Source: Candidatus Poribacteria bacterium
GTDB lineage: Bacteria; Poribacteria; WGA-4E; WGA-3G
Direction: 5' to 3'
Assembly (NCBI GenBank): GCA_012270795.1
Contig: JAAXHO010000164.1
Coordinates: 1-64,000, forward strand
DNA: 64,000 nt
Part shown: one piece after another, positions 45,435 through 50,187 of the stretch
Position numbering within the stretch: the first letter of the stretch is position 1
Layout: each line of letters begins with the position of its first letter
Notes under the pieces: generated by a model
The model's database searches: none
Seen by the model: the letters and a program-made list of their open reading frames with translations, nothing else
Told to the model about the DNA's origin: nothing
Translations under genes and position numbers: made by a program

Positions 45435-47150
45435 TTAGAATGCTACCGTTTTCACTTTTCTTCTATCATACCAATAGGTGAACTGCCGAAAATAGTAACC
45501 TGAATTTTTCGGTATCTTTACAAATTCAGGTACGAATTGGCATGTCCCACCCAGTACAACCAACTGCTCTTTTGCGCGCGTCATGGCGACATAAAAGACA
45601 CGTCGTTCTTCTTCAAGGATAGTATCTTTGCGGGGAAACTTTCGCTCAAGCGTATTGTGCACGAGTATGACTTTTTCCCATTCCCGTCCCTTCGCTTTGT
45701 GTATTGTTGTTGCCTCAATAGGATGTGAAAACGTATGACTTGATAGGACCTCTGTAATACGATCAACTTCATAGTTTGTTCTGGCAAGGATTGCAGTTTC
45801 AACAGGTTCGGATAAATGCGTCAATAGTTCCTGTTCTATTGTCTCTGGCGACGTTTCAACATTGATGATTGTACATTTCAACGGATTATAGGCACGCAGG
45901 TTTTTGCGTATTCGGGGGTTATTCCTTTCAATTAAGGCTCTTGCGTGTTCCACAATTGTTGAAGTAGAACGATAGTTTCGTGTAATCTCATATTTTTTCA
46001 CATCTACTCTATGAGAAAATTGTATCATGATTTGGGAATTCCCACCGCGAAAACTATATATCGCTTGGTCATCGTCCCCGACAGCAAAAAGATTGTTAGT
46101 TAACTGGTCAATTAACCTGAAATCAGCTGGGGCGATATCCTGAAATTCATCTACAAGTAGATATGGATATTTTTCTTGATATGTTTGACGGATGTCAGGA
46201 TGGGTTTCTAACAAGTGTGCTGCGTAGATGATCATATCTTCAAAATCAAGTGCATTCGCTTCGGACTTAAGGGTTTCATATCTCTTTGCGAATTCACGTG
46301 CAACCGGACTTTTTAACGTATTTGGATCAAATGTGCCAGATTTGACCTGTCTCTTTGCGCGAAACACAGTATCTTTTATCTCAGTAAAACGGTCTCGTAG
46401 GTTCTCAAAATCTGGGTCTCTATCAAGATGCTCAGTGTATTGAATGTCAAAATGCTTGCAGAATACCTCAATCATGAGTTGGTTGCTGAATTGTTGACGC
46501 ATCGGGTCTGCACGGTTGAATACCCCCGCTCTATTTTTATAATGCCAAATTCTGTGTGCCTCTCGAATATTTGCATCTTTACCACTAACCTGTTCTAACA
46601 CTTCAAAGATAAACTGTTCCTCTCCTTCAGCTCGGATGGCTTGACGTAGGCGATCATTAGATGAATGTGTGAAATGTTCATGTTTGCGCCGTTCAGGATT
46701 TGTAGTCTGTCCGATGTAACATTTTCCAGTTTTTTTGTCTTCTATTTTATAGATAGCAACATCTGTGTTTGATACCGTCTGTTCAATCTGCTTTCTCTCT
46801 TGCGCAATTATTCGCTCCAATTCACCCGACCAGATCTCGGGGTTGTGTTGAAATCCTATTCGTTTATGATGTTCAGTGATTATATCTTTACCAAATGCAT
46901 GTAGCGTGCGAATTGTGGGGAGTCTGTCTCGTGATGATAAATGATCTATAAGGCGATTTTCCATTTCTTCAACTGCTTTTCTATTGAATGCGATGGCAAG
47001 GATGTCGTCGTGTGGGACATTGTGTTTATGAATTAGAGTAAGTATGCGTTCAGTTACGACAGCAGTTTTACCACTTCCAGGTCCGGCAACAACGATTGCT
47101 GGACCGTTAAGATGGTTCACGGCTTTTTCTTGGTTTTTGTCAAGGTTCAT
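45435..47150 (-). CDS. UvrD/Rep-type superfamily 1 helicase with inserted GIY-YIG nuclease domain
   Basis: 571 residues. Helicase motifs: Walker A GPGSGKT (23-29), AFNRKAVEEM, TLHAFG, DEFQD (334-338), GDDDQAIYSFRGG, RNYRST, TTIHKAKGREWE and VAMTRAKEQL. Between motif Ib and LDFEDM, where domain 1B should be, sits a GIY-YIG module (about 131-216): VAIYKI, CYIGQTTNPERRKHEHF, catalytic Glu in NIREAH (E197) and Asn in GVFNRAD, like I-TevI. No intein splice junctions are seen. Predicted to unwind and nick DNA. It stands alone; role in repair, defence or mobile-element control unknown. Confidence 0.9.
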   Translation of the reverse strand: MNLDKNQEKAVNHLNGPAIVVAGPGSGKTAVVTERILTLIHKHNVPHDDILAIAFNRKAVEEMENRLIDHLSSRDRLPTIRTLHAFGKDIITEHHKRIGFQHNPEIWSGELERIIAQERKQIEQTVSNTDVAIYKIEDKKTGKCYIGQTTNPERRKHEHFTHSSNDRLRQAIRAEGEEQFIFEVLEQVSGKDANIREAHRIWHYKNRAGVFNRADPMRQQFSNQLMIEVFCKHFDIQYTEHLDRDPDFENLRDRFTEIKDTVFRAKRQVKSGTFDPNTLKSPVAREFAKRYETLKSEANALDFEDMIIYAAHLLETHPDIRQTYQEKYPYLLVDEFQDIAPADFRLIDQLTNNLFAVGDDDQAIYSFRGGNSQIMIQFSHRVDVKKYEITRNYRSTSTIVEHARALIERNNPRIRKNLRAYNPLKCTIINVETSPETIEQELLTHLSEPVETAILARTNYEVDRITEVLSSHTFSHPIEATTIHKAKGREWEKVILVHNTLERKFPRKDTILEEERRVFYVAMTRAKEQLVVLGGTCQFVPEFVKIPKNSGYYFRQFTYWYDRRKVKTVAF

Positions 47151-47318: not shown

Positions 47319-48238
47319 ATGGCTAAAAAAAGTACTAATCAGCGAAAGAGCCGTACAAGCCCCAAAAAAACCAGAAGTCCACAATACTACTACAAACAAG
47401 GACTTACTAAAGCAGGACACTATGAACATGAAGGAGCAATAGGTGATTTTAACAAAGCAATTCGACTCAAACCTGATTTCGCAGAAGCATACTATCATCG
47501 TGGAATATCAAAGTTTGAATTAGTTGAGTACGAAGACGCTATTGCAGATATTAATGACGCGATCAAATATAATCCAGATTACTTTCAGGCTTATGCTAAA
47601 CGCGGAGAAATTCGTAGTTTAATGAGGAGGAGGAAGAAGGGATCTCAGACTGTGATACTGCCCTTAGTATTAATCCAGATTATGATGAAGCATACGTTAT
47701 CCGTGGCATAATTAAAAAGGATTTAGGGCTTTTTGACGAGGCACTTAAAGAATATAGGAAAGCATTTAAGAAATTTGATAAACAAATTCAGAAGAATCCT
47801 GAGAACATAGAGGCATACTACGAGCGGGGCGTTGCAAATCTGCATTTATCTAATTTTGAAGATGCTATCACAGATTTTGACAAAGTTATTCGGCAGCAGC
47901 CAAAAAACGCCGAGGTATACAACCTACGTGGATTAGCTAAGGAAGGTCTTGACTTAAGTGAAGATGCTTTTGATGACCTTAACGAAGCAATAAAGTTGAA
48001 ACCTGATTTCGGTGAAGCATTTTACAACAGGGGTATGGTAAAATGTAATCTTGAGTTATTTGAAGCTGCTATTGATGATTTCAGTAAAGCAATTCAGATA
48101 ATAGAAGATTACCCACAAGCCTATATTGGTCGGTCATTTGCTTACAGTGAGCTTGGGAGAGATTTGGATTCTATGGAAGACTTTAATAAAGTTTTTCAAC
48201 TTATTACTTCATCTGAATTAAAAAAGTTAAAGTCGTAA
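47319..48238 (+). pseudogene. TPR-repeat protein gene with a frameshift
   Basis: A good start (MAKKSTNQRKSRTSPKKTRS after AAGGAG) leads into TPR units (HEGAIGDFNKAIRLKPDFAE...). At about 47618-47640, in the purine tract AATGAGGAGGAGGAAGAAGG, the frame breaks. The other frame continues as EEEEEGISDCDTALSINPDY and further TPRs to the stop at 48238. Joining the frames gives a protein of about 306 residues with seven or so repeats and no signal peptide. A programmed or phase-variable shift in the repeat tract, a mutation, or a sequencing error are all possible. Confidence 0.8.
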
Positions 48239-49446: not shown

Positions 49447-50187
49447 ATGTGTGGACGATTTACACTCGCAAGTGACACAGAAAGAATAAGTGATGCGTTT
49501 AGTAACATGCAAATTCAAATGGATTTGTCTCCACGTTACAACATCGCGCCATCACAAGATGTCGCAGTTATTGCGAATACGAAGGAGAATGAGGGCGGTA
49601 AAAATGTTGAATTCTTCCAGTGGGGACTAATTCCATCATGGGCAAAAGACGCGAAAATCGGGAACAGAATGATAAATGCACGTTCAGAAACACTATCAGA
49701 AAAACCATCCTTCCGAACCGCATATAAACGGAGGCGTTGTCTTATCTTAGCCGATGGTTGGTATGAATGGCAAGAGATACCGGGAGAAAAGACCAAACAA
49801 CCTGTATATATCCGCCTAAAATCAAAAGACCCGTTTGCATTTGCTGGACTATGGGAGGAATGGAAAGCAAACTGGATGGAAAAACCACTCCGATCCTGCA
49901 CTATTATCACATGTGCTGCGAACCAGTTTTTGGAAGAGATTCACCACAGAATGCCAGTGATTCTTCCCAAAGATGCTTATTCACAATGGCTTGATCCTGA
50001 TGAACAGTCATCAGAAAAACTGCAGCCGCTTCTGAAACCATACACCAGTGATGATATGGATGCATACCCAGTTTCACGTTTTGTTAACCGTCCTGCAAAC
50101 GACTCACCAGAATGTATCGCACCAGAGTCTGACGCTAACAAAGAAAACGAAGTACAGTATATTAAAGGATTGTTTGACAGTGAATAA
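49447..50187 (+). CDS. yedK: SOS response-associated peptidase / HMCES family
   Basis: 246 residues. Begins MCGRFTLAS with the catalytic Cys2 that crosslinks to abasic sites. NIAPSQDVAVI, INARSETLSEKPSF, RRCLILADGWYEWQ, and the H of IHHRMPVIL are all conserved. It protects abasic sites in single-stranded DNA. Strong AAAAGGAG ribosome site. Ends just upstream of pdhA-like gene. Confidence 0.96.
   Translation: MCGRFTLASDTERISDAFSNMQIQMDLSPRYNIAPSQDVAVIANTKENEGGKNVEFFQWGLIPSWAKDAKIGNRMINARSETLSEKPSFRTAYKRRRCLILADGWYEWQEIPGEKTKQPVYIRLKSKDPFAFAGLWEEWKANWMEKPLRSCTIITCAANQFLEEIHHRMPVILPKDAYSQWLDPDEQSSEKLQPLLKPYTSDDMDAYPVSRFVNRPANDSPECIAPESDANKENEVQYIKGLFDSE

Follow-up and report, generated by a model that had tools for sequence, protein, structure and literature searches.

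A gene on contig JAAXHO010000164.1 of a Candidatus Poribacteria bacterium (GCA_012270795.1) raises the question of what a UvrD/Rep-type helicase might do with a nuclease domain placed in the middle of its motor. An earlier note, made from the letters alone, had described uninterrupted SF1A helicase motifs on both sides of a GIY-YIG nuclease inserted into domain 1B, with a complete I-TevI-like catalytic set. These architectural claims were borne out by the analyses below, but the note overlooked the loss of domain 2B and the existence of paralogs with duplicated GIY-YIG domains; its interpretation was supported only in part.

A GIY-YIG domain lies inside domain 1B of an SF1A helicase

The gene occupies positions 45435-47150 of the 64,000-nucleotide stretch that was analysed (the window), on the reverse strand like all of its features given here. 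It is an uninterrupted open reading frame of 571 codons plus a stop, encoding an SF1A helicase with an internal GIY-YIG domain. Pfam placed the UvrD-helicase domain (PF00580) at residues 3-381 (1.2e-62), followed by UvrD_C (2.4e-21), and nested within the former a GIY-YIG domain (PF01541) at residues 133-204 (2.9e-8, 34.3 bits compared to a cut-off of 22.6). Motifs I to VI are all intact and are invariant across an alignment of 26 orthologs. Motif I, the Walker A motif GPGSGKT (residues 23-29), is at 47064-47084 and contains K28, the Walker A lysine named by the earlier note; motif II, LVDEFQD (residues 332-338), is at 46137-46157. Domain 2A (45531-45980) carries motifs IV (NYRST, 392), V (TIHKAKGREWE, 482) and VI (FYVAMTRA, 519). 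It is followed by a short C-terminal tail (45438-45530) with the family-conserved pattern FVPEF..I.KN..YY.RQ..YW and without a known domain.

The first helix of domain 1B (46767-46832, residues ~107-128) reads PEIW-SGELERIIAQERKQ, aligns to FQILDSEDQLRLLKRL of UvrD and was modelled by AlphaFold2 (AF2) as a helix at residues 110-128. The GIY-YIG domain comes next (46509-46766, residues ~129-214), and then the rest of domain 1B (46251-46508, residues ~215-300), which includes VFRAKRQV, the counterpart of the UvrD/Rep IxxxKN helix. In alignments with E. coli Rep, E. coli UvrD and poribacterial UvrDs, the residues ahead of the insert corresponded to the beginning of 1B and its first helix, and the residues behind it to the IxxxKN helix. 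As both flanks align to 1B, the insertion is inside 1B. The spacing between motifs Ib and II is 250 aa compared to 129 aa in E. coli Rep and UvrD, an excess of 121 aa. Two artefacts that the earlier note had itself raised were excluded. A degenerate 1B domain is ruled out by the alignment of both flanks to 1B, together with profile searches, AF2 and Foldseek, which identify the insert as GIY-YIG; an assembly chimera is ruled out by the presence of the same uninterrupted reading frame in 54 genomes, several of them single-contig.

The insert is predicted to have an I-TevI-like fold

The excised insert matched TIGR01453 (group I intron endonuclease) at 1.5e-13 and 51.3 bits, slightly below the cut-off of 56.05, and PHROG homing endonucleases with a best value of 6.8e-17. 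In the PDB, the top match to the insert profile was I-TevI (1.8e-5). The domain contains the sequences IYKI and CYIG; Y134 and Y145 align to the I-TevI tyrosines, and R155, H159, E197 and N212 align to R27, H31, E75 and N90, respectively. All of these residues are invariant in the 26 orthologs, and E197 is the E75 equivalent, as the earlier note had assigned it.

The AF2 model of the whole protein had a mean pLDDT of 71 and was poor at the 1A and 2A motifs. Its insert had a pLDDT of ~90-95 over most residues, with the strand and helix order of GIY-YIG domains. When used to search with Foldseek, the full model retrieved UvrD, Rep and PcrA. The insert modelled alone gave a pLDDT of 84.8 and a beta-beta-alpha-alpha-beta-alpha fold, and retrieved I-TevI, UvrC-GIY and, more weakly, Slx1, with a probability of 1.00 to 1mk0 and 1ln0. 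Profiles, AF2 and Foldseek thus concur in predicting an I-TevI-like GIY-YIG fold; metal-dependent DNA cleavage, a trait of this superfamily, is a putative activity of the insert. The Pfam hits of the 571-aa protein included no NUMOD or HINT/intein domain (the insert measures ~86-120 aa), no C-terminal PD-(D/E)XK nuclease and none of the UvrC/Cho modules (C-terminal UvrB-binding, EndoV-like, HhH and Cho domains).

Domain 2B is missing from the motor

UvrD, Rep and PcrA are built from four subdomains (1A, 1B, 2A and 2B). In the 571-aa protein motifs IV and V are separated by 90 aa, compared to 270-280 aa in UvrD, Rep and most of the poribacterial UvrDs compared; the regulatory domain 2B is therefore gone. 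The insert-free core is collinear in one piece with E. coli DNA helicase IV (HelD), with 29% identity over 96%. HelD has a small 2B (PMC3720892) and, unlike the 571-aa protein, has a long N-terminal extension (the PRK11054 match starts at 397 of 684) and no nuclease. When the 26 Poribacteria genomes outside the family that carries the gene were searched for an insert-free ancestor, only generic UvrD-like proteins were returned, and none of them was collinear with the core along its full length. The naturally 2B-less PcrA-s (MPN340) of Mycoplasma pneumoniae and the engineered Rep-delta-2B are active helicases (PMC3720892) but have no nuclease insertion. Since these 2B-less relatives are active, an active, non-autoinhibited monomer is plausible for the 571-aa helicase.

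The gene is conserved within one family of Poribacteria

Many Poribacteria are sponge symbionts. A search for proteins with the same insertion point, as the earlier note had proposed, found the gene in 54 of the 59 genomes of one Candidatus Poribacteria family, with the insert in every ortholog, and in none of the 26 other Poribacteria genomes. Four of the five family genomes without the gene are MAGs that are 73-83% complete. The fifth, G024, is a single contig with an intact purL-purQ neighbourhood and no detectable remnant of the gene; at the syntenic site (L270, G024:C1:4392000-4408000) ~690 bp of non-homologous sequence stands in its place. The whole gene can therefore be lost and is not essential.

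In about 30 of 46 loci the gene lies downstream of purL, purQ and a gene for a small membrane protein. In other loci, the window among them, it precedes an MFS gene and a block of outer-membrane-type/PhyH genes, and no operon partner pointing to a pathway is conserved among the loci compared. Amino-acid distances track those of purL for both the helicase (r = 0.89) and the insert (r = 0.85), with 0 of 999 permutations reaching these values. The dN/dS of the insert was 0.06-0.20 in nine close pairs, similar to that of the helicase. These sequence comparisons indicate that the gene is vertically inherited, constrained and under purifying selection.

No carriers outside Poribacteria were found in a GTDB scan with insert-specific peptides, a set of strict patterns that distant carriers may escape; the scan returned Poribacteria and one standalone GIY-YIG protein (Selenomonadales, L104) only. 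No phage or plasmid record with a helicase and an internal GIY-YIG domain was found either. In IMG/VR, the best 80 of 231 matches were GIY-YIG alone, and a motif scan found no reading frame joining helicase to GIY-YIG.

Within the window, the helicase is surrounded by MFS, PhyH, TPR, SDR, SRAP and E1_dh genes. PADLOC detected no defence gene among eight neighbours tested, one generic TPR match aside, and GajA (an OLD-type ATPase-TOPRIM nuclease) was not found among them. Two TPR reading frames ~280 bases apart lie beside the helicase on the forward strand (47319-47711 and 47996-48238) and may be one frameshift-broken TPR gene. The SRAP gene (SOS-associated, YedK/HMCES-like; 49447-50187, forward strand) is ~2.3 kb from the helicase and did not emerge as a conserved neighbour.

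Paralogs often carry a second GIY-YIG domain in 1B

A second copy is present in 12 genomes, usually nearby. Among the intact paralogs that were read (including L260), most contain a tandem pair of GIY-YIG domains in 1B, and L043 and L262 have one. In the pairs, the terminal Asn is frequently missing from the first domain; the second is without the Arg and, in many cases, without its central part as well. Seven adjacent paralogs (L038, 8045-12076; L039, 9094-13386; L040, 10304-13681; L041, 8738-12196; and, on the reverse strand, L042, 4544-8431; L043, 5430-9170; L044, 4111-9204) have open frames of 1126-1698 aa, in which one or two GIY-YIG domains in 1B are followed mostly by coiled coil, GrpE-like and S1 RNA-binding domains. 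L038, which has two GIY-YIG domains, carries GrpE (PF01025, 3.5e-23) and two S1 domains, and the single-GIY-YIG L043 carries four S1 domains. Such a helicase-nuclease-GrpE-S1 fusion is very unusual. As the paralogs vary in GIY-YIG copy number, the insertion site in 1B is a place of domain duplication and variation.

The architecture differs from known helicase-nucleases

UvrD, Rep and PcrA, the best Foldseek matches, share with the 571-aa protein all helicase motifs and the 1A/1B/2A layout, but the 571-aa protein has no 2B and has a nuclease domain in 1B. It also falls under every equivalog cut-off, being too divergent (216 bits compared to 911 for pcrA). I-TevI, UvrC and Slx1 have the fold and catalytic residues of the insert. 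Their DNA-binding domains are terminal or separate, whereas here the nuclease is nested in the motor. In RecBCD, AddAB and AdnAB a UvrD-like motor is likewise joined to a nuclease, but these are multisubunit enzymes with a C-terminal PD-(D/E)XK nuclease and with 2B present. To our knowledge, the nuclease of all known helicase-nucleases is either terminal or a partner of the helicase. Gabija GajB, a UvrD-like helicase of ~500 aa, has no nuclease in its chain and partners with GajA; with GajA missing from the helicase locus, Gabija was ruled out.

The nearest known architecture is Tlr8p of the Tlr elements, which combines an SF1 helicase and a GIY-YIG domain in one chain. According to a 2006 GIY-YIG survey, this is a protein of a eukaryotic mobile element whose GIY-YIG domain (aa 1240-1340) is C-terminal, after the SF1 helicase (PMC1564403). 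In the open-access literature searched, neither a GIY-YIG domain nor any other nuclease was found within 1B of an SF1A helicase, and the architecture, which was also new to the earlier note, appears to be unreported. By its sequence, the protein is classed as a 2B-less UvrD-like helicase variant; since it lacks defining features of each, it was not assigned to UvrD, Rep, PcrA, GajB or the homing endonucleases.

Proposed function and alternatives

We consider it reasonably probable that the protein is a single-chain, monomeric 3'-5' helicase-nickase acting on branched or flapped DNA, most likely in genome maintenance; its direction, its nicking and the coupling of this to unwinding, its substrate and its role are all inferred. 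Motors of the UvrD/Rep family are expected to translocate along single-stranded DNA in the 3'-5' direction, with 1B facing the duplex junction. A 2B-less motor of this kind would bind single-stranded DNA and travel 3'-5' to a single-strand/duplex junction; with 2B missing it would not be autoinhibited and would work as a monomer. The nuclease lacks a DNA-binding domain of the NUMOD or HTH type, so its targeting would be supplied by the motor, and it would cut where the motor carries it. The most likely activity would be nicking near the single-strand/duplex junctions of flaps, forks and other branched DNA, tied to unwinding. A more ambitious version, which we put forward tentatively, is that the protein represents a new helicase-nuclease class: a GIY-YIG nickase within 1B would replace the lost 2B at the duplex junction, the motor both positioning and gating the cut; in the paralogs, duplication of the module and its joining to S1 and GrpE-like domains would serve an additional task, perhaps one linked to RNA. 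If true, one small chain would couple cutting to each unwinding step, making it a possible compact nickase motor, and a nested nuclease without 2B would naturally test how 1B and 2B place DNA in UvrD-family motors.

The earlier note had suggested a defence or repair effector. An anti-phage or anti-plasmid role, in which a solo helicase-nuclease would find replicating or terminal foreign DNA and unwind and nick it like Gabija GajB plus a nuclease, is unlikely. Helicase-nuclease pairs are frequent in defence systems, and toxin-antitoxin-like, HNH or methylase genes are close to the helicase in some genomes. GajB (7.3e-65) and RTasHel (4e-61) were the best PADLOC matches, though they reflect generic UvrD similarity. 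However, defence genes are patchy, whereas this gene is near-universal in its family, syntenic and vertical; there are no defence neighbours and no GajA-like partner, and the phage, plasmid and IMG/VR records searched gave no instance of the architecture. This distribution favours a role in genome maintenance over defence, so that the defence half of the suggestion is disfavoured and the repair half stands as the favoured, unproven, proposal.

The remaining alternatives concern the insert. That it is a relic of a mobile element, domesticated or parasitic, which is tolerated in 1B without any function coupled to the helicase, is improbable. Its nearest relatives are intron and phage homing endonucleases, mobile-looking standalone GIY-YIG genes are present in these Poribacteria genomes, and GIY-YIG domains do invade genes: HsdR MCA0838 has an isolated GIY-YIG insertion that is missing from a homologue 80% identical to it (PMC1564403). 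By contrast, no insert-free allele was found in the family, where all 54 carriers have the insert and the loss in G024 took the whole gene. The catalytic residues are invariant, dN/dS is low, and distances follow the helicase and purL. The lack of HINT or NUMOD matches and of empty alleles rules out an intein or active homing element, and the insert is likely derived from a homing-type element without having lost its function. Least probable of all is that the GIY-YIG domain is a wedge that binds DNA structures in place of 2B and is not a nuclease. The duplex-contacting 2B is indeed missing, the insert is located in 1B, and the degenerate second GIY-YIG domain of the paralogs looks as though it were retained for binding, but pure binding would not need the full catalytic set that is invariant in the main family.

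Other GIY-YIG and helicase genes in these genomes

The genome that contains the window encodes two further GIY-YIG reading frames of UvrC/Cho type (the UvrC call being based on length and sequence). In G035, three small standalone GIY-YIG genes (L251, L252 and L253, on contigs C3 and C2) rank with the nearest profile matches to the insert; their contigs, of 80 kb and 289 kb beside one of 5.7 Mb, are possibly plasmids. The window's own genome also carries, on contig C197 (G000, ~66206-67525; L003, L008), an open frame of 1290 aa that joins a 2B-less UvrD helicase to TPR repeats and to a domain of the RuvC Holliday-junction resolvase (PF02075, 2.7e-21). Judged by its domain matches, this fusion is a second instance of a 2B-less motor joined to a junction nuclease.
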